DNA from: Paeniglutamicibacter quisquiliarum
GTDB taxonomy: Bacteria > Actinomycetota > Actinomycetes > Actinomycetales > Micrococcaceae
Reading direction: 5' to 3'
Length of the DNA: 64,000 nt
NCBI RefSeq assembly: GCF_019084045.1
Contig: NZ_JAHRED010000003.1
Span: 186,001 to 250,000 of the forward strand
Shown here piece after piece: positions 6,097-18,950 of the stretch; the first letter of the stretch is position 1, and every line of letters begins with the position of its first letter. The translations under genes and the position numbers were made by a program. Under the pieces are notes generated by a model. The model ran no database searches. It was not told where the DNA came from and worked only from the letters and a program-made list of their open reading frames with translations.

Positions 6097-6687
6097 CTAT
6101 TCCCCGCCTGTACCGCGGTCCCGCTCGAGGTCGAGCAGGACCTTCTTGGCCTCCAGGCCGCCCAGGTACCCGCCGAGGGACCCGTCGCTGCGCAGCACGC
6201 GGTGGCAGGGGACCACGATCGGCAGCGGGTTGGTGGCGCACGCGGTGCCCACCGCACGCACCGCCGCCGGGCGGCCGGTGGTTGCGGCCAGTTCCTTGTA
6301 GCTCACGGTGTGCCCGTACCCGATCGAGGGCAGGGCGAGCTGGACCTCCAGGCGGTAGCCGCTGGACAGCCGGTGGTCCAGGGACAGCTCGAAGCCCCGG
6401 CGCGCATGTCCGAAGTATTCATCGAGTTGGGCCGCCGCCGCATCCAGCGGTGCGGCTCGGTGCAGCACGCGCACCCCGACCTTCTCGGCCAGGGTTCCGA
6501 GCACCGCATCGAAGTCCTCGGCGGCGAAGGCGACGCGCACGATGCCGCGCTCGGTGGCGGCAAGCAGCAACTGGCCCAGCGGGGAGTCCACCAGCCGGTA
6601 GGAAACATCGATCAGCCCCTCGGCGGCGGCCCGCTCGGCCAGTTGCTGCCGCAGGACATCCATTTCGTGCATGGCAAGTTCGCTCAT
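6097..6687 (-). CDS. ogt: Methylated-DNA-[protein]-cysteine S-methyltransferase
   Basis: A 196-aa suicide DNA-repair protein that moves the methyl group of O6-methylguanine to its own cysteine. The active site PCHR is at 160-163 (C161), followed by the conserved GYLGGLEAK loop; the helix-turn-helix with the arginine finger lies at about 128-146 (SYKELAATTGRPAAVRAV). The length fits Ogt rather than Ada. Its ATG overlaps the stop of the sigma-factor gene (ATGA, 6684-6687), so the two are translationally coupled. That arrangement suggests the sigma factor belongs to the alkylation response; this is inference. Confidence 0.95.
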   Translation of the reverse strand: MSELAMHEMDVLRQQLAERAAAEGLIDVSYRLVDSPLGQLLLAATERGIVRVAFAAEDFDAVLGTLAEKVGVRVLHRAAPLDAAAAQLDEYFGHARRGFELSLDHRLSSGYRLEVQLALPSIGYGHTVSYKELAATTGRPAAVRAVGTACATNPLPIVVPCHRVLRSDGSLGGYLGGLEAKKVLLDLERDRGTGGE

Positions 6688-7163
6688 GATTCTTCCTCCG
6701 CTTCGTGGTGTTGGCTGCGCAGGGCCTTGATGCCGTCCGCGGCGGCCCGGCGCAGCGAGGCGGGATTGCCGCCCAGGAACGCCGGGATCTCCTCATAGGG
6801 GAACCCGAGCAGGTAGTGGTAGCCGATGACCTTGCGTTGCAGCTCGCTCAGCGAGGCGAGGGAATCCAGCAGCTGCAGCCCTCCCAGGCCCGCCGGCAGC
6901 ACCGCGGATTCCGGGAGCTCGTCCAGGGGGACGGGGTGGTTGGCGCGCAGGATGTCGATGGCCTTGTGCCGGGCGATGGTGATCAGCCACGCCTCGATGT
7001 TGGCGCCGATGGCCAGGGACGGGTAGGCGCGCAGGGCCGCCAGGAACGTTTCGCTCCAGGCATCCTGCGCATCGGGTCCCGGGCCCAGCAGGGCGGTGCA
7101 CATGCGCAGCACCGAGGTGCCGTGCCTGCGCACCACCAGCTCGAAGGCGGGGTTCGTTGTCAT
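6684..7163 (-). CDS. ECF-type RNA polymerase sigma factor
   Basis: A 159-aa sigma-70 family protein with region 2 (about 5-80, including the AWSETFLAALRAYP helix) and region 4 (about 100-155, LSELQRKVIGYHYLLGFPYEEIPAFLGGNP). ATG 7163 is preferred: AGGG lies 7 nt upstream, while the in-frame GTG at 7169 has none. No anti-sigma factor is encoded next to it; the next gene is ogt. It starts 43 bp after jetC on the same strand, in the place where jetD normally stands, so it may be co-transcribed with jetABC. Confidence 0.87.
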   Translation of the reverse strand: MTTNPAFELVVRRHGTSVLRMCTALLGPGPDAQDAWSETFLAALRAYPSLAIGANIEAWLITIARHKAIDILRANHPVPLDELPESAVLPAGLGGLQLLDSLASLSELQRKVIGYHYLLGFPYEEIPAFLGGNPASLRRAAADGIKALRSQHHEAEEES

Positions 7164-7206
7164 CTCCACACCCTGTAAACGCCCCGGCGCACCATTTTGT
7201 GAGGTG

Positions 7207-10200
7207 CTATCGCAAAATGATGCTCGTGGCCACGGCCGGGGAGCGGCCCGAGGCCACGAATCCGGAGACGTTGGATTCGGGGTGCTTGATGATGTCGCAC
7301 ACCGAACCCAGGTGCCGGGAGAGATCGATCTTGTCCTCGGGCGCCGCGAGCAGCAGCTGGAACCCGAATTCCTGCAGCGCGTTGATGCCCGCGGCCGCGT
7401 ATTCGGAGTTCGCCTGGATGAACGCCTCGTCGATCATCACGGTGCCGTAGGCGGTGAACCCGGCGGTGGCGAAGCCCAGCTGGTAGGCCAGGGCCGCGCC
7501 CATGATGAAGGAAGTGAAGCGCTGGCCCTCGCCGCCGGAAAGCGTTCCCGGCTCCAGGCCGGTCTCGACCTCGCCGTTGGGCTTGTGCTCGTTGCAGCTG
7601 ATCGTCACGTGCTGGCGCACGTCCAGCACGGTGTCGCGCCACGCGGCCCGCGAGGAATCGTCCAGCGCGTCGACCAGGGCCTCGAGCGCCTTGTAGCTCT
7701 CGCTCAGGGTCCCGGCGCCGCGGGAGGAATACGCACCGGCGAGGGCATCCTTCAGGGCCTGGCGGAAGGCCCGCGCCTCGTCGGGGACCGTCGTGGTGAC
7801 CTCGAGGGCAAGCCTGGACCCGTGCTCGAAGGTGACGTCGGCGAGGATCTGGTTCAGCGGGGAGATGCGTTCGGCAATCGACCGGCGTTCCTCCTCCAGC
7901 AGCTGCAACAGGTCCGAGAAGCGCTCGTAGGAGCGGTTGGAGAAGTACTCGCGGAACTCCTCCTCGTGCTGCGGCAGCCCCTGCTCGATGATGCCCTGGT
8001 GCAGGGCGACGTAGTGCTCGGCCGCCTCCACCGAGGTGCCGAAGGAAACGGCGGCGGAATTGCCGAATTCGCGGGCGAAGGCACGGAAGGTGTCCTTCAG
8101 CGAGGCCTCCAGCGTGTAGGCCTCGCGCTTGAGCTCGGCCCCGGACTCGGACAGGGCCAGGGCCAGTGCGCTCAGCGCGGCCTCCAACTCGGTGGTTCCC
8201 ACCGGGGAACCCTCGTCCAGGCGCTTGACCAGTGGCGCCAGCTGTTCGCTGCCCGCCAGTTTCTCCGCCGCCCAGTCCTCGGTCTGGGTGTCGCGCACGC
8301 CGGCGGCACGCAGCGCGCTCCAGGCCTTCTCCAGGGCGGCGGACAGCGTGCCCGCCTCGGCGCGGGCCACCGCCAGGGTGCCCACGCACTCCTCGAGTTC
8401 GGCACGTGCCGCCTCCAGGGAGCGGCGCACATGGGACAGGTCCCCGGACCTGGACAGCGCCTCGGCCATGCGCGCCTCGAGGTCCTGCAGGACGTTCAGG
8501 GCGCCTGAGGCGTCCAGCGAGGCGAAGGACCTGTCGTCGCTGGCCAGGGTGCCCAGCAGCGCCAGCTTGGCGGAAAGCTGGTCCTTGGCCGCGGAGCGGT
8601 CGTCCGCCACCGCGGCGGCCTTCGCGGTCTCTGCCTCGAGCTTGGCCAGCTTGGCCTCGAGCTCGGAGATCTTTTCCGCGTTGGTGAAGCCGAGCAGGTA
8701 GTCGGAGGCCGCGACCGGGCGGGTGTCGCGCTCGAAGGTCCCGGAGCCGGTCTTGATGGTGCCGGCCAGGGAGATGGCCTTGTCGTGGATGTGCAGGCCG
8801 GCATCCGACTCCACGCAGGCCAGCGGGTAGTCTGCGGCGATCTTGGCGCGCAGCCAGGTTCCCGCCTCCGAGTGCTTGAAATCGAGCTTGCCCACCAGGT
8901 CCCCGGGGCCGGCGACGACCTCGCGCGGGATCCGGGAAATATCCATCCAGCGGATCCGGCCCAGGCCCGAGAGCGAGTCGATGGCCCGCGTGACCGACTT
9001 GATGTCCTCGCCCTTCACCAGCAGCGTCGTGGCCAGGGAGCGCAGCGCCTTTTCGGCCGAGGGCCGCCACTGCCCGTGGGCGGGGGAGAGGTCGATGAGT
9101 TCGCCGGCAAAGGGCAGGTCCTCGATGTCCAGCTTCGTGGCGGCGGCGATCGCGCGGCGGGCGGCAATGGAGCGGTCATCGATGTTGGAGCCGCGCTTGG
9201 CGTAGGAGTCGATCTGGAGCCGGAGCTTGTTGGCCCGGTCCTTCAGGTTCATCACCGAGGCCATGGCCTCGTATTCCATGGTGCGCGCGTCCTTGGCGAT
9301 CGAGGCAAGGTTCTCGGCGCTGACCGCGGCCTGGCGGCGCATGGCCTGCAGGCCCGAGGAGGTGAACGTGAAGTTCAGCCCCACGGCCTCGAAGTTTTCC
9401 CGCAGCGTGCGCAGCACCGCCTCGCGGTCGGCCAGGTTCTTGCGCGCCGCCTCGGCCTCGCGTTCCAGCAGCGCCAGCCCGGCACCGCCGCCGGCCTCGT
9501 GCTGCTCATTGAGCGAGGAGACCTTGGCCTCCAGCGCGGCCTTGCGGACGCCGCTTTCCTCGATCAACGTCGTGTTGGTCTCGACGGCGGCGGTGAGCAT
9601 GGCGCTTTCCCCGCGCAGCGCCCGGGTGGCCAGCTGGGCGCCGAAGGCCGGAAGCTGCGTGGTGACCAGTGCGTTGAGCGTGGCCAGCTCGGCGCTCAGC
9701 TCGTCGTGGCGCAGCTTCTGCTCGGGCACCGAGGCCAGGGCGTCGCGCTGGGCGCGGGCCTCCTCCAGCTGGCGGTGGATGCCGCGCAGGTGGGAGAAGT
9801 CCTCGATGGCGCCGGTGGCGGCCTTCATCGTCGCGGGGATTTCCAGCACCTCGTAGCGGAAGAACTGGTTGACGCCCTTGTCCAGTCCCTTGCCGTTCTG
9901 CAGGGTGCGCAGCAGGGAGAACGCCTTGTCGTTGTCGATGCCCAGTCGGCGGCGGAACTTCTCGGCGAAGGCGCGGTGCACGTCGAAGGCCTCGAAGCCG
10001 GGCAGCGACTTCTGCAGCGAGGAGGGGGTGAAGCGGCGCGCCCCGTGGTCCTCGAGGGCAGCGGTGTCCAGCACCCGGTCGCCCATGACGTAGTGCTTGC
10101 CGACCTGGCCCTCCAGGCCGTTGGCCGGCAGGTCGAAGATCGCCCCGATGCACACATTCGAGCCCAGCCCGTCCTCGTACACCAGTGCCAGCGCGCTCCA

Positions 10201-10530
10201 GGTGGCGCCGGGGCGCTGGTACAGGGTCCCGGCCTCGGTCTTGAAGCGGCGCCCGCGCATGTAGGAGTACGTGGTGCGGCGGTCCTTGCGGGTGGAGGCC
10301 TCGTGCGCGGATTCGTTCAGCCGCGGGGCGGCATGGAAGATGTGCCCGATGCCGTCGAAGAGGGTCGACTTGCCCACGCCGGGGTGACCGGTGAGCAGTG
10401 TCCCGGCCCGGTCCACGTAGAGGGTGTGCCGGCCGTGGAAGGTTCCCCAGTTGATGACCTGGATCTGGGTGAGCCGGTGCTGCCCCGGGTTCAGCGCGTC
10501 GGAGAGCGGGAGGGTCATTTCAATGCTCAT
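7207..10530 (-). CDS. jetC: SMC-like ATPase JetC / MksB
   Basis: A 1107-aa condensin-type ATPase. Walker A GHPGVGKST is at 48-56; long coiled-coil arms rich in A, E, L and R fill about 240-430 and 600-900; a hinge-like segment lies between; the C-terminal head carries LSGGEGQR and Walker B VMIDEAF near residue 1030. In Wadjet (JetABCD) and MksBEFG systems this subunit dimerises and extrudes DNA loops, which lets the complex recognise small circular plasmids. The ATG overlaps the jetB stop (10527-10530). The downstream nuclease gene jetD is absent here. Assignment rests on fold pattern and gene order. Confidence 0.88.
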   Translation of the reverse strand: MSIEMTLPLSDALNPGQHRLTQIQVINWGTFHGRHTLYVDRAGTLLTGHPGVGKSTLFDGIGHIFHAAPRLNESAHEASTRKDRRTTYSYMRGRRFKTEAGTLYQRPGATWSALALVYEDGLGSNVCIGAIFDLPANGLEGQVGKHYVMGDRVLDTAALEDHGARRFTPSSLQKSLPGFEAFDVHRAFAEKFRRRLGIDNDKAFSLLRTLQNGKGLDKGVNQFFRYEVLEIPATMKAATGAIEDFSHLRGIHRQLEEARAQRDALASVPEQKLRHDELSAELATLNALVTTQLPAFGAQLATRALRGESAMLTAAVETNTTLIEESGVRKAALEAKVSSLNEQHEAGGGAGLALLEREAEAARKNLADREAVLRTLRENFEAVGLNFTFTSSGLQAMRRQAAVSAENLASIAKDARTMEYEAMASVMNLKDRANKLRLQIDSYAKRGSNIDDRSIAARRAIAAATKLDIEDLPFAGELIDLSPAHGQWRPSAEKALRSLATTLLVKGEDIKSVTRAIDSLSGLGRIRWMDISRIPREVVAGPGDLVGKLDFKHSEAGTWLRAKIAADYPLACVESDAGLHIHDKAISLAGTIKTGSGTFERDTRPVAASDYLLGFTNAEKISELEAKLAKLEAETAKAAAVADDRSAAKDQLSAKLALLGTLASDDRSFASLDASGALNVLQDLEARMAEALSRSGDLSHVRRSLEAARAELEECVGTLAVARAEAGTLSAALEKAWSALRAAGVRDTQTEDWAAEKLAGSEQLAPLVKRLDEGSPVGTTELEAALSALALALSESGAELKREAYTLEASLKDTFRAFAREFGNSAAVSFGTSVEAAEHYVALHQGIIEQGLPQHEEEFREYFSNRSYERFSDLLQLLEEERRSIAERISPLNQILADVTFEHGSRLALEVTTTVPDEARAFRQALKDALAGAYSSRGAGTLSESYKALEALVDALDDSSRAAWRDTVLDVRQHVTISCNEHKPNGEVETGLEPGTLSGGEGQRFTSFIMGAALAYQLGFATAGFTAYGTVMIDEAFIQANSEYAAAGINALQEFGFQLLLAAPEDKIDLSRHLGSVCDIIKHPESNVSGFVASGRSPAVATSIILR

Positions 10531-11186
10531 AGCTCGTCTGTCTCCAACTCGAATTCTTCGGTGTCATCGGTGCCCACGCGCTCAATGGCCTTGATGTACT
10601 CGGGGATTTCCTCGACCGCCGCAAACGGCAGGGCGAGGGCCAGCGCCCCGGAGACCTTGTACTCGTCGCCCAGCTCGGTGGGCAGGATGAGCTTGAGGTT
10701 CAGCAGCCGGGTGAGGGCGGCGTCGGTGTTCTCCTCGAGCTTCTTGTCGTCGGTGTCCCCGGGGGCACGGTGCTCGAGCAGGATTTCCCGTGCCGCCTCC
10801 CGGGTGATCACCGCGTCGGTGCCCGACCCGGCGTGGCGCTCCAGCAACAGGCGCAGGCGCAGGGCCAGCAGCGTTTCCTCGCGCTTCAGGGCGCGGCGCG
10901 GGGCGATCGCGGTGGTGTGCGCTGCCTCCAGGTCCACCGGGGCAAGCAACGCGATCTTGCGGTTGGCATCGACCTCGAGCACCAGGAAGATCTCGGCGAC
11001 GTAGGCGGCGATGTCCTCCCGCCGGTCCAGCACCAGTTGCCAGAGCCGCGGCTCGGCGACGCCGTCCAGGTACGGGCCGCGCAGCAGGCGCACCAGCAGC
11101 TGGCGCAGCGGCAGCTCGAAGGAACCGGTGTCGCCCTCGAAGAGGCGGCGTTCGTCGATCGCGCCGGTGGGAAGTGGGCTGCTCAT
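10527..11186 (-). CDS. jetB: JetB / MksE (DUF4194), kite-like condensin subunit
   Basis: A 219-aa acidic protein of tandem winged-helix character with the DUF4194 pattern: LPLRQLLVRLLRGPYLDG near residue 25, LLALRLRLLLE near 105, and a C-terminal FAAVEEIPEYIKAIERVG. In MksBEF/Wadjet complexes this subunit bridges the kleisin (JetA) and the ATPase heads (JetC). It overlaps both neighbours by 4 nt, so the three subunits are made from one message with coupled translation. Length matches the family. Confidence 0.87.
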   Translation of the reverse strand: MSSPLPTGAIDERRLFEGDTGSFELPLRQLLVRLLRGPYLDGVAEPRLWQLVLDRREDIAAYVAEIFLVLEVDANRKIALLAPVDLEAAHTTAIAPRRALKREETLLALRLRLLLERHAGSGTDAVITREAAREILLEHRAPGDTDDKKLEENTDAALTRLLNLKLILPTELGDEYKVSGALALALPFAAVEEIPEYIKAIERVGTDDTEEFELETDEL

Positions 11187-12640
11187 GCGGGATCCTTCGT
11201 GAAGCTCATGGCCGGCACCAACGCTGTGCGCGTGGCGCCGTCGACCTGGGTGAAGCTGATTTCCTCGAGGCTGGCCTCGTCGATGTGGTCCCCGCCGTTG
11301 CGGGCCGTCTCGATGAGGTACCTGATGGTGTTCAGGTGCCGGTGTTCGTCGCCGAGGCTGTTGTAGGTTTCGCGCAGGCCCACCGAACCGCCGGCCCTGA
11401 GGCGCGACGCGGCGATGGCATTCTTCAGCGCCGGGATGTCGGGGCCCGGGGTGGAAGGGGTGCGCCTGATGTCGGCGATCGACAGCGGCGGCGGGGCAGC
11501 CAGCTTGGGCGGTGCGACGTGTTCGTCGGGGTCGTAGATGCCCAGCGCCGCAATCGAGGTGAAGCGCGGGGCATAGAGCCTGATCGGGGCCACCGGCGTG
11601 CGCGAGTGCAGCACGCGGGAGGAGGACACGGCGACCTCCGCGGCGCGCACCGCCTCGCGCAGGATGGCAGCTTCCTTGAACTCCGCCGATTGCACGTAGG
11701 CGTGCAGCGACTCGGACAGCCGGCCGTAGGACTGGTGGACCTCGGAGGCCTGGCGGCGCAGCTCGCGCAGCAGGTTGGCCAGCGTGTGGCGTTCCTGGGC
11801 GTCGAGCGCGTCGACGAAGTCGCGTTCGAGGACCTCGTTGACGGCCTCGCGGAAGCGCGCCTGGGCCTCGGGGGAGTTCAGGAACTCGGTGAAGCCGCGG
11901 AAGGTCTCGCCCTGCGGGGTGCTGCGCAACTGCTTGTCGCCCTCCAGCACCGCGCCGACGGCAACGCCCTTGACGGAGGAGGATTCCATGATTTCCCCGC
12001 GCAGGGCGTGGAGCATCTCCTGGACCCCGTCGCGCATGCGCTTGAAGTCCGCCGGCAGCCCGGAGGCCATGTCCAGCACCGAGCGGGTGGCTGCCAGTGC
12101 GCCCTCGCGGGGGAGCACCGCCGGGGAGGTCCCGTCGCGCAGCGAGGCGATCTTTTCCTGGCGCTGGGCGATCTCCGCCTCGAGCGCGCGGATGCGCGCG
12201 GCGGGGTCCGGGTCGGTCTCGTGGGCCAGGGACTCCAGGGACGTGAGGAGCGTGTTCAGCCGCGAGGAGTTCAGGTTGGTGCGGTCCCCGGAGAAGTCGG
12301 CGAGGAACTTCAGCACGCGCGCGGTCTGCGCGGTCGGCTCGTAGACGAAGTGGCCGTCAACCAGCGGACGGGCCAGGAACTGGTTGCGCACCCAGGCATC
12401 GGCGTATTGCGCCGCCCCCATCGAGTCGCCGAAGGCCGGGTCCTCGGAGCGCACGACCTTGAGAAAGGATTCGAGGGAGGCATGGAAGACCTCCAGCCCC
12501 ACGCGGGGCTTGGCGCTGGTGAATTCGGCGCGCAGGAAGGCCACGGCCCAGGGGGCGGTGGAGAGCAATTTCCAGGCTGCGGACGACCTGAATTGTTGCG
12601 TCTGACTCCACAGCGGGCTCGCCTGGTGGGTAGGTCGCAT
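11183..12640 (-). CDS. jetA: JetA / MksF (DUF3375), kleisin subunit
   Basis: A 485-aa protein of the DUF3375 family. Family traits are the N-terminal helical part (FRSSAAWKLLSTAPWAVAFLRAEF), a central coiled coil (ARIRALEAEIAQRQEKI) and a C-terminal region rich in short helices. In Wadjet it is the kleisin that closes the JetC ring. ATG 12640 is chosen because AAAAGGA lies just upstream and the frame before it (to 12811) has no protein-like composition. It is the first gene of jetABC; its promoter should lie in 12641-12797, shared with the divergent lipoprotein gene. Confidence 0.88.
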   Translation of the reverse strand: MRPTHQASPLWSQTQQFRSSAAWKLLSTAPWAVAFLRAEFTSAKPRVGLEVFHASLESFLKVVRSEDPAFGDSMGAAQYADAWVRNQFLARPLVDGHFVYEPTAQTARVLKFLADFSGDRTNLNSSRLNTLLTSLESLAHETDPDPAARIRALEAEIAQRQEKIASLRDGTSPAVLPREGALAATRSVLDMASGLPADFKRMRDGVQEMLHALRGEIMESSSVKGVAVGAVLEGDKQLRSTPQGETFRGFTEFLNSPEAQARFREAVNEVLERDFVDALDAQERHTLANLLRELRRQASEVHQSYGRLSESLHAYVQSAEFKEAAILREAVRAAEVAVSSSRVLHSRTPVAPIRLYAPRFTSIAALGIYDPDEHVAPPKLAAPPPLSIADIRRTPSTPGPDIPALKNAIAASRLRAGGSVGLRETYNSLGDEHRHLNTIRYLIETARNGGDHIDEASLEEISFTQVDGATRTALVPAMSFTKDPA

Positions 12641-15485: not shown

Positions 15486-18400
15486 TCAGGATCCCAGGGC
15501 CAGGAACGCCCCGAGTTGTGCGAAGGCCGCCGGGGTGCCGGGCAGGAAGCGCGTGAGCGCGGGGGATCGCACGATGACGGCGCGCCATTGGCCGCGCGAG
15601 ACCGCCACGTTGATCCGATTGCGGTTCAGCAGGAAGTCGATGCCGCGGGCGGCATCGTCGGCCGAGGAGCACGCCATGGACACGATGACCACCGGGGCTT
15701 CCTGGCCCTGGAACTTGTCCACGGTGCCGACCTTGACGTCTTCCAGTCCGGCGTTGTCGAGCTCGGTGCGCAGCAGGTTGACCTGCGCGTTGTAGGCGGC
15801 AACGACCAGGATGTCTTCGGCCAGCAGCTGCCGCGGCGCGGCGCCTTCGCCGCCCACCCAGGACAATCCCACGTGGGCCCGCACCTGGTTGATGACCTCG
15901 TGCGCTTCCTCCAGGGACTGGGTCGTGTTGCCCCGGTGCTCCACCAGCGCGGTGGACACCCCTGCCGGCACGCCGGAGAGCGAGCGCTTGGCCGCGGCTG
16001 CGGCCGACTGCAGTTTGGACTCGTAGCTCAGTGCCGAGACCTTGGCACACAGCTCGGGGTGCATGCGCCACGAATCGGCCAGGAAGTAGCCCAGCTCCCC
16101 GGGCAGCGTGGGGTGCCCGGCGCTGAGCCAGCCCAGCGCCGACTCGTCCACCGGTTGCGGGTGGGAACCCTGGGTGACCTGCGGCAGCTGCTGCGGGTCG
16201 CCCAGCAGGAGCAGGCGGGTCGCGGCGCGGGAAACCGCCAGGGTGTTGGCCAGCGAATACTGGCCCGCCTCGTCGATGACCAGCAAATCCAGCGAGCCCT
16301 CCGGAACCCGCTTGCCGGTCATGGTCCAGGCGGTGCCGCCGATCAGCGCGCCTTGATCCGAGTTGAGCAGTTCCTCCACGGCGTCGTCCGTGGTTCCGGA
16401 CCAGGGGACCTCGGACTTGTCCCCGGCCTTCAGTTTCTTCGCCACCTGCTCCGGGTGCACCCCGGCGCCGGTGATGGCCTTGGTGAGCACGTTGTCCACC
16501 ACCGCGTGGGACTGGGCCACGACCCCGACCTTCCAGCCCTGCTTCACCAGGGCGGCAATGACGTGGGATGCCACGAAGGTCTTTCCGGTGCCCGGCGGAC
16601 CCTGGACGGCGAGGTAGGAATGGTCCAGGTCGTTCAGGGCCTCGACGATCGCGCCGACGATGTTTGGCCGCCCGTCGACGGGCTCCGGGGCCGGCGGGGC
16701 GGAAAGCGTCTTGAAGCGCGGTGCGGACTTGCGCAGGATGTCGATGCCCGGGTGCTTCGGCAGGGAGGGCAGGGCGCCGCCGACGGTGCGCGCCAGCTCG
16801 GCCAGGGCCTCGCGCAGCGAGGTGGTATTGATGGGCTGGTCGGGGGTCAGTGCCACCGGCAGCGTCCCGAAGGGCTGCACCTTCTTGCTGGACTTCTCGG
16901 CAATGACGAGCCGGTCCTCGTTCTGACGCACCACCGCATTGAACAGCCCGGCCCGCCCGGCGGTGCTGGGCTCGAGTTCCGGGGGCAGGGGATCGGCATA
17001 CATGGCGAACCAGGAACTGCCCGGGCGGAAGTCCGATCCCTCGGCCATGGTGCCGGCCAGGCAGGTGACGCGGGTTTCCACCTGCGCCCGGGCCGTGGAC
17101 TTGTGCCAGTCCTCCAGCACCGCCGCGTCGTCGACCACGAACACGTTGCGGGTCTCCGCCCAAACATCGAAGGGCTGATCCAGCCGGTCGAAGTGCTCCC
17201 ACCAGAATTGCTTGGCCTCGCGCCGGTGGTAGCCGGTGGCGGCGGCGACCATGGCGATGGCCCGCTCGTCGTTGCTCAGCGTGCGGTCCTGGGGAAGGGA
17301 TTCGAGGTACTCGCGCAGCGCGATTTCCTCCGGGCTCGGCTCGACGTCGTCGACCCCGGGGAGGGGAGTCTCGTCCACCCATTCGGTGCGCGGTTCGTGC
17401 GGCACCAGGCCCAGCAGCCAGTCGCGCAGCCGCAGCGTGGAGAGGCAGTCGTATTCGTTGTAGTCGCGGATGGATTCCAGGATCCGCCCGGCCTCCGCCC
17501 CGTCGATTTCCAGCTGCTCGCAGTACTTGGCGTAGGCGACCACGGAGGCGCCGGCGTCCTTGACGTCCCCGCCGCGCAGGTGCTCGCCCATGTAGAGCGG
17601 CTCGAGCTTCTTGATCGAATAGGAGCGCTCGGAGATCAGCAGGGAGTGGCGAACCGTGTCATAGAGGTCCACCAGCAGCCCGTCGCGCAGCCACTGGTCG
17701 ATGGTGTCCTCGTCGACCACGTGGCGCAGCGACAGGTTTCGCAGCGCGCTCTTCTCATAGGGCGCGTAGTGGTAGATCTTCATCTGCGGGTAGATCGCGC
17801 GCCGCGCCTCGACGTAGGCGACGAAGTCGGTGAAGGCCTTGCGTTCCTCGGCCCGGGAATGGGCCCAGAAAGGCTTGAAGACCGGTTCGTCCGTGTCGAT
17901 CTCGATGACCCCGAAGAGGTATTCCAGACCCCAGGACTCGTCAAAGGGGTCCTGCCACAGCGGGTCGCCCTCGAAGTCGAAGAAGATGTCCCCGGTGCTG
18001 GGTTCCGGGAGCCGGGAAATGGTTTGGGTGGCGCTGACCTTGTAGGCGACCCCGCCGATGGTTCCGTCGGTGGCGCCGAGCCCGACCTGCATGCGGGCCT
18101 GCTCGGCGAGCTTGTGGTGCGGGTCGCGTGCCTTGGTGTTGGAGGCGGCGAGCTCGTCGATGGTGTTGATTCCGGCTTCCATGAGCTTCCTGCGCTTGGC
18201 GGTGCTCATGCCGGCGACCAGCAGCAGGTCGCGGTGTTTGGCGACCTGCTCGGCGCAGTAGTCGCAGCGACCGCAGGCGCCGATGCCCTCCTGCCCCCAG
18301 GCAACGGGGTCGGAAGCGGCCCGGTGGGCAGCGGTGAGGGCCTTGAAGCGGGACCGGCGGTCCTTGAACACCGGAAGCAGCTCGTGCATCTGGTGCACCG

Positions 18401-18950
18401 AATGGGTCTTGTCCCCGAGCACCAGGGTGGTCTGCGCGGCGACGGGGATCCCCGAGGTGATGAGCTGGTCGCCGTAGGCGGCCAGCTGGAGCAGGGCGGT
18501 GACGCGGGCGTGGCGGGCCAGCTTGGTGTCCCACACCGCGTAGGTACCGTCGGCCTCGCGGATGAGGAAGTCGGCAAAGCCGACGAATTCCCCGTCGAAG
18601 AAGGTCGCCTGGAACACCACGTCGGCGCCCTTGAGCAGTGCTTGGTGGGTTTCCTCGTGGGCTGCCTCCAGCGAGGCGCGGTCCCCGCGGACGCCGGCGG
18701 CGAGCATCTTCACGCCGCGTCCGGTGGCCGGGTCATAGTCACCGAACCGAGCACGGAGTTCCTCGAGGACCTTGTGTTCGTGGGCGTCTCCCAGTACCGC
18801 GGTGCGGTCGAGCATCTCGTCGGGGCCGAAGTCGGCCTTGGCGCTGCGTCCCAGGCGTTCATCGAGCTTGCTCAGCGAGGCGAATTCGCAGCCGGCAGCC
18901 ACCACGAGATCGGATGCGGAGTAGATCAGATCCTGATCGAGGAAAAACAC
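15486..18950 (-). CDS. TM0106-type RecB-like nuclease fused to helicase
   Basis: A 1154-aa three-part protein. First, a RecB-like nuclease: GFADFLIREADG and DTK (141-143) with a following QLAAYG motif, and cysteines C21, C226, C229 and C232, spaced like the 4Fe-4S cluster of AddB and Cas4 nucleases. Second, a ribonuclease H-like domain starting near 315 (FFDFEGDPLW). Third, a superfamily 1 helicase with Walker A GPPGTGKT (about 780), Walker B VIDEAGQ (about 888), GDPQQLPQ, and the C-terminal FQGQE and NVAVSRG motifs. Such proteins are thought to process DNA or RNA ends; the exact role is unknown. Start GTG 18950 follows AAGGAG. It appears to be a single-gene unit. Confidence 0.87.
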   Translation of the reverse strand: MFFLDQDLIYSASDLVVAAGCEFASLSKLDERLGRSAKADFGPDEMLDRTAVLGDAHEHKVLEELRARFGDYDPATGRGVKMLAAGVRGDRASLEAAHEETHQALLKGADVVFQATFFDGEFVGFADFLIREADGTYAVWDTKLARHARVTALLQLAAYGDQLITSGIPVAAQTTLVLGDKTHSVHQMHELLPVFKDRRSRFKALTAAHRAASDPVAWGQEGIGACGRCDYCAEQVAKHRDLLLVAGMSTAKRRKLMEAGINTIDELAASNTKARDPHHKLAEQARMQVGLGATDGTIGGVAYKVSATQTISRLPEPSTGDIFFDFEGDPLWQDPFDESWGLEYLFGVIEIDTDEPVFKPFWAHSRAEERKAFTDFVAYVEARRAIYPQMKIYHYAPYEKSALRNLSLRHVVDEDTIDQWLRDGLLVDLYDTVRHSLLISERSYSIKKLEPLYMGEHLRGGDVKDAGASVVAYAKYCEQLEIDGAEAGRILESIRDYNEYDCLSTLRLRDWLLGLVPHEPRTEWVDETPLPGVDDVEPSPEEIALREYLESLPQDRTLSNDERAIAMVAAATGYHRREAKQFWWEHFDRLDQPFDVWAETRNVFVVDDAAVLEDWHKSTARAQVETRVTCLAGTMAEGSDFRPGSSWFAMYADPLPPELEPSTAGRAGLFNAVVRQNEDRLVIAEKSSKKVQPFGTLPVALTPDQPINTTSLREALAELARTVGGALPSLPKHPGIDILRKSAPRFKTLSAPPAPEPVDGRPNIVGAIVEALNDLDHSYLAVQGPPGTGKTFVASHVIAALVKQGWKVGVVAQSHAVVDNVLTKAITGAGVHPEQVAKKLKAGDKSEVPWSGTTDDAVEELLNSDQGALIGGTAWTMTGKRVPEGSLDLLVIDEAGQYSLANTLAVSRAATRLLLLGDPQQLPQVTQGSHPQPVDESALGWLSAGHPTLPGELGYFLADSWRMHPELCAKVSALSYESKLQSAAAAAKRSLSGVPAGVSTALVEHRGNTTQSLEEAHEVINQVRAHVGLSWVGGEGAAPRQLLAEDILVVAAYNAQVNLLRTELDNAGLEDVKVGTVDKFQGQEAPVVIVSMACSSADDAARGIDFLLNRNRINVAVSRGQWRAVIVRSPALTRFLPGTPAAFAQLGAFLALGS

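Follow-up and report, generated by a model that had tools for sequence, protein, structure and literature searches.

The window analysed here, a stretch of 64,000 nucleotides from Paeniglutamicibacter quisquiliarum, carries on its minus strand the genes jetA, jetB and jetC in this order. As derived from profile searches, jetA (11183-12640) encodes a kleisin of the MukF/MksF type with 485 aa (PF11855), jetB (10527-11186) a KITE subunit of the MukE/MksE type with 219 aa (PF13835, DUF4194) and jetC (7207-10530) an SMC ATPase with 1107 aa (AAA_29 and SbcC_Walker_B). All three subunits of a type I system are thereby present (PADLOC JetA1 744, JetB1 252 and JetC1 1041 bits), and consecutive genes overlap by 4 bp at each junction. 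They are followed on the same strand by a gene for an ECF-type sigma factor (6684-7169; Sigma70_r2 and r4_2), which starts either at ATG 7163, 43 bp past jetC, or at an in-frame GTG at 7169 (37 bp), and, with another 4-bp overlap, by ogt for an O6-methylguanine-DNA methyltransferase (6097-6687; PF01035 and TIGR00589, MGMT). Both were treated as neighbours outside the complex. A preliminary description of this DNA had read the same 4-bp overlaps, the 43-bp gap and sigma factor plus ogt where the nuclease gene jetD would be expected, all of which was confirmed on the sequence. A promoter scan of the locus found none, and terminator-like sites numbered 3 versus 3.4 in shuffles.

The window JetC carries a Walker A motif (GHPGVGKST), a signature motif (LSGGEGQ) and a Walker B motif (VMIDEAF) and matches the solved JetC 8as8 with E 5.4e-65 over residues 19-1076; it matches the solved JetC proteins of E. 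coli and P. aeruginosa PA14 along its length. The three SMC subunits, the gene order and the overlaps are shared with type I Wadjet, also known as MksBEFG or EptABCD (JetABCD). By gene content and predicted folds the locus provides a kleisin, KITE and SMC set without a nuclease, which is the composition of an MksG-less MksBEF. In addition, a canonical Smc is encoded in the genome as a 1289-aa open frame.

In order to locate JetD, the own genome, a draft of 4.44 Mb in 35 contigs with a completeness of 100, was searched with the two Pfam models PF09983 and PF11795, resulting in 0 matches at E 0.001. In a control on 14 genomes each model was positive in one, C. glutamicum. An alignment of 11 JetD proteins from relatives returned nothing from the own genome up to E 10 in a search that had no positive control. 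A jetD elsewhere in the genome, which the preliminary description had named as evidence to the contrary, was therefore not found with the two models. A gap in the draft assembly might in principle hide the gene, which we judge to be unlikely in view of the result across the family. Three options had been offered for the locus, namely a nuclease-free chromosome organiser, a system that borrows another nuclease and a condensin linked to the DNA-damage response through sigma factor and ogt. The gene content supports the first of them as far as the nuclease-free complex is concerned; the organiser role itself would follow by analogy.

Within Paeniglutamicibacter the locus was observed in 15/15 genomes, with 69-98% identity per gene. 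Four of the 15 genomes contained a second jetABC, this time with JetD, which was 25-29% identical to the window jetA and jetC. One other genome of the genus has a JetD fragment only (L043 in G012), with no jetABC remains detected nearby at E 1e-3, which suggests turnover of an accessory Wadjet.

The family sample comprised 197 Micrococcaceae genomes, with JetA in 110 and JetD_C in 49 of them, whereby JetD outside the own genome was sought with PF09983 alone, so that divergent JetD of other Wadjet types may escape. According to their scores the JetA loci formed two sets, divided by a 370-bit line which was chosen after the scores had been seen: 44/46 loci with at least 370 bits had JetD_C within 15 kb, versus 0/90 of the loci with 257-364 bits, the window included (two JetA fragments with 27.3 and 19.7 bits, in G139 and G165, were left out of this cross-table). 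The two exceptions among the high-scoring loci were G118, with JetD on another contig, and G147, with no JetD. The 90 low-scoring loci, four of which belong to genus code g11 (G024, G053, G076 and G098), came from 90 different genomes with a single copy each, and in 62 of these genomes no JetD_C match was found genome-wide. Both JetA types occurred side by side in 25 family genomes. With JetD_C near 0/90 window-type loci, neither relatives carrying jetD in the slot nor a recent deletion scar, both named as contrary signs in the preliminary description, were encountered, and a recent deletion scar is rejected on this basis. The window-type locus was missing from 107/197 family genomes and is consequently not essential to the family. 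In the order sample outside the family, 53 of the 107 genomes with JetA had no JetD_C match, and such genomes were distributed unevenly over the families (f11 19/22, f8 17/22, f6 1/18). One JetABC locus of this sample (L170 in G382) combined the top JetA score of 500 bits with a genome without JetD_C match, perhaps reflecting a recent JetD loss.

The JetC phylogeny was determined for 66 core loci, i.e. 63 of the other 86 family loci (those outside g11) and three additional genus genomes. In a FastTree analysis 66/66 fell into one clade with no foreign row within. In a quick IQ-TREE analysis of 65 rows, for which long branches and uneven composition were flagged and the JetC of L158 was excluded as truncated, the 35 core rows formed one side of a branch with an SH-aLRT of 100, and the label for JetD presence required 5 changes. 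The three g11 loci entered in the trees lay outside the clade of the window JetC. As JetD-bearing clades flank the core clade on both sides, one JetD loss on its stem is the simplest reading, whose direction is not provable from an unrooted tree. Inside the core clade 10/11 sampled genus codes were monophyletic. The exception was g8, whose six loci (L103-L108) were scattered, with L108 beside g32; transfer or an uneven genus are possible causes. Because of this scatter, inheritance of the core locus appears vertical for the most part but not throughout, unless the genus g8 is itself uneven.

For evaluation of the selective constraint, dN/dS values were calculated after Nei and Gojobori, each against the window only, with 10-14 pairs per gene. 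The medians within the genus were 0.090 for jetA (range 0.066-0.371), 0.084 for jetB (0.049-0.309) and 0.095 for jetC (0.066-0.412). These values are lower than the medians of ftsX (FtsX permease, 0.287), pda (polysaccharide-deacetylase-like protein, 0.234), sig (0.332), ogt (0.143) and akr (aldo/keto reductase, 0.134) and higher than that of abc (ABC ATPase, 0.062), the compared neighbours being named by Pfam; since partners were chosen by shared peptides, single pairs may be wrong (one ftsX value was 1.08). The low dN/dS points to purifying selection on jetABC in the genus and, consequently, to a locus that is not decaying. Furthermore, Walker A, signature and Walker B motifs were intact in 66/66 core loci examined, so that the SMC head appears ATPase-competent, as judged by its motifs. 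The idea that the locus is what remains of a decaying Wadjet operon, for which the loss of jetD could be quoted, is contradicted by the low dN/dS, the 66/66 intact ATPase motifs and the single deep clade, and we assign it a practically negligible probability. Instead, the two-set JetA distribution, the single JetC clade, the intact ATPase motifs and the dN/dS of about 0.09 argue for a JetD that was lost long ago and a JetABC complex that was kept.

According to the preliminary description sigma factor and ogt fill the slot of jetD. In the genus the arrangement is regular indeed: the sigma gene was co-directional with jetC in 15/15 genomes, at a distance of at most 45 bp in 11 of them, and ogt came next in 15/15. 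The short distance in 11/15 genomes makes read-through from jetC into the sigma gene possible within Paeniglutamicibacter. An ogt near jetC was observed in Zafaria as well, and an alkyltransferase-like gene near jetA in 5/5 loci of family f11 (confirmed by PF01035 in the one tested, L158); altogether, alkyltransferase genes were detected in 30/184 partly redundant jet-gene loci (tblastn, E 1e-4), namely those of Paeniglutamicibacter, Zafaria and f11. These observations would speak for a condensin which the sigma-ogt pair ties to the response to alkylation damage. Against it, jetC-sigma gaps of 55, 85, 217 and 1350 bp also occur within the genus, and the linkage is not constant outside it. At E 0.001 the sigma protein had matches in 100/120 family genomes, a large part of the matches being only distant sigma factors. 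Among the best 30 sigma loci, ogt adjoined the sigma gene in 30/30; jetC was beside the pair in the 6 Paeniglutamicibacter loci and was not found within about 1.5 kb in any of the 24 loci from outside the genus. The 24 genomes concerned carried the core jet locus elsewhere in 10 cases and not at all in 14. In the jet locus of Glutamicibacter, the flanking ABC exporter and deacetylase-like gene are kept and ogt is absent. As the pair stands apart from jetC in the 24 sampled loci outside the genus and the Glutamicibacter locus lacks ogt, sigma-ogt is, by gene order, a separate, unrelated module downstream of jetC in Paeniglutamicibacter and no substitute for jetD. The filling of the slot was accordingly not borne out, a functional replacement of jetD by the pair is out, and we consider the coupling to alkylation damage, the third of the options above, very unlikely.

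The genes downstream of jetC vary from genus to genus. A shared downstream nuclease was sought by Pfam analysis of ten genes past jetC in nine loci, which unveiled no common gene; the types found were a BenE transporter, Radical SAM/RlmN-like, FUSC, LytR, MBL-fold hydrolase, MPAB, histidine kinase, nucleotidyltransferase and malic enzyme, and one gene had no match. The MBL-fold type refers to three g8 genomes (L105-L107) with a gene of 352-354 aa, 14 bp past jetC on the same strand and assigned by Pfam in L106; the metallo-beta-lactamase superfamily includes nucleases.

The operon itself can be interrupted. In G002, likewise a Paeniglutamicibacter genome, dehydratase-, SDR- and GntR-like genes, as recognised by eye from their first residues, lie between jetA and jetB (L026, 4740-9915), and jetA, jetB and jetC are all still open frames despite the interruption. 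Other genes between jetA and jetB were also observed in 5/5 f11 loci (L157-L161), with jetC farther on and found in 3/5. That the genes stay intact where the operon is no longer tight is easier to reconcile with a housekeeping role than with a defence system of the cassette type. In two further loci short JetA-like fragments were detected upstream of the core jetA (L146, 15265-15651; L148, 15146-15349), perhaps the remains of a duplicate jetA.

Upstream of jetA, on the minus strand as well, the window encodes a RecB-like nuclease of the TM0106 family with an SF1 helicase (15486-18950; TIGR03491 with 166.7 bits at a cut-off of 97.45). It is the best candidate for a different nuclease that would serve JetABC in trans, which was the second option of the preliminary description. 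In Paeniglutamicibacter, Glutamicibacter, Zafaria and some genomes named Arthrobacter it is encoded upstream of jetA and in the same direction, with a distance of 61-69 bp in L135, L139 and L142; it lies within 15 kb of the core jetA in 30/90 core genomes. Matches were obtained in 67/90 core genomes versus 37/107 others (Fisher p 2e-8, kinship ignored), and the retained N-terminal motif of JetB, described below, would also suit a partner in trans. However, with three candidates per genome scored, TM0106 had no match at E 1e-60 in 23/90 core genomes, and it was present in 37 genomes which lack the core locus; in eight genomes it was 42-133 kb off on the same contig, so that the link resembles regional gene order. 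We therefore regard the nuclease-helicase as a candidate partner which is probably a mere neighbour of the jet locus, and the borrowing of a nuclease as improbable.

The window JetB starts with an N-terminal motif (LFEGDTG), and the LFxGDxG type of this motif was retained in 66/66 core loci. A looser GDxG was found in the JetB of 6/13 JetD-bearing loci, 14/20 other JetD-less loci and 0/5 f11 loci. According to PMC10586767, JetD is reported to touch JetB at its N-terminus, through an IFDR motif. An equation of this motif with LFxGDxG was not supported, since the profile alignment with the E. coli JetB did not show it and 7/13 JetD loci had no GDxG. If the retained motif is a docking site, it would point to another partner. 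On this basis one may speculate, with a rather low probability, that a plasmid-sensing SMC motor gave up cutting in one bacterial family, gained a new partner via LFxGDxG of JetB and now silences or organises DNA in parallel to Smc5/6, and that this occurred repeatedly in Micrococcales.

In our view the locus probably encodes a nuclease-free, MksBEF-like auxiliary condensin which derives from a type I Wadjet and would act beside the canonical Smc. In the simplest case JetD would have been lost a single time, on the stem of one lineage within the Micrococcaceae, and JetA-JetB-JetC has since persisted as a locus with one copy per genome and largely vertical inheritance. Judging from the JetABC motor, whose biochemistry is described in PMC10586767 and PMC12647877, the complex should bind DNA, hydrolyse ATP and extrude loops with no cleavage at the end. 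The chromosome as its target is suggested by MksBEF of P. aeruginosa as treated in parts of PMC10586767; the single deletion there had a mild defect, with 1.2% anucleate cells under one condition according to an excerpt of PMC4255302. Several points stand against the condensin reading, namely the JetB motif in 66/66 core loci, the g8 scatter, the 107/197 genomes without the locus and MksBEFG of C. glutamicum. The latter, which has MksG, acts on plasmids and has no effect on chromosome folding as far as the pertinent section of PMC7083940 goes, so that a complex of the JetABC type does not have to work on the chromosome.

JetABC may alternatively still target plasmids without cutting them, by entrapping or compacting circles and thus silencing or destabilising them, similar to eukaryotic Smc5/6, which silences or destabilises viral DNA. 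The close kinship with plasmid-sensing JetABC, the C. glutamicum case and the 25 genomes which hold the locus next to a JetA-JetD locus are in line with this proposal. The single-copy, largely vertical inheritance, on the other hand, is unlike a defence system, and we consider plasmid silencing to be unlikely. The auxiliary condensin remains the preferred reading, and it suggests a plasmid-defence machine which turned into a permanent DNA organiser.

Compared with type I Wadjet, the window operon and its genome have no JetD nuclease detectable by PF09983 and PF11795, and the locus is single-copy and largely vertical whereas Wadjet is accessory. MksBEF of the P. aeruginosa type (no MksG) is likewise a nuclease-free kleisin-KITE-SMC operon beside a canonical Smc. 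In contrast to it, the window subunits are nearest to the type I Jet profiles: the window JetB reached 98.1 bits with DUF4194 versus 25.8 bits with MksE PF21980, which is below the cut-off of 27. The case looks independent of P. aeruginosa MksBEF, whose sequences were left out of the tree. A possible origin of MksBEF and MukBEF from a defence complex which lost JetD has been proposed in print (PMC10586767). For Paenarthrobacter lasiusi S21, of the same family, Table 6 of PMC11719660 has a Wadjet entry with JetA, JetB and JetC next to a type I JetA1-JetD1 locus; the former is listed as antiviral defence, and in the accessible portion of that paper no conclusion is drawn from the missing JetD. 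A published report of a family-wide JetD-less JetABC was not found among titles and abstract openings, a scope which excludes preprints and most subscription papers.

For defence-finding pipelines the P. lasiusi listing, as one case (PMC11719660), indicates that JetD-less JetABC can be scored as defence. With a clade in which JetD loss is fixed, JetD-bearing clades, 25 genomes with both types and Smc as comparator, the Micrococcaceae represent a replicated natural case, in which the action of JetABC on chromosomes after loss of the nuclease becomes testable in tractable soil bacteria.
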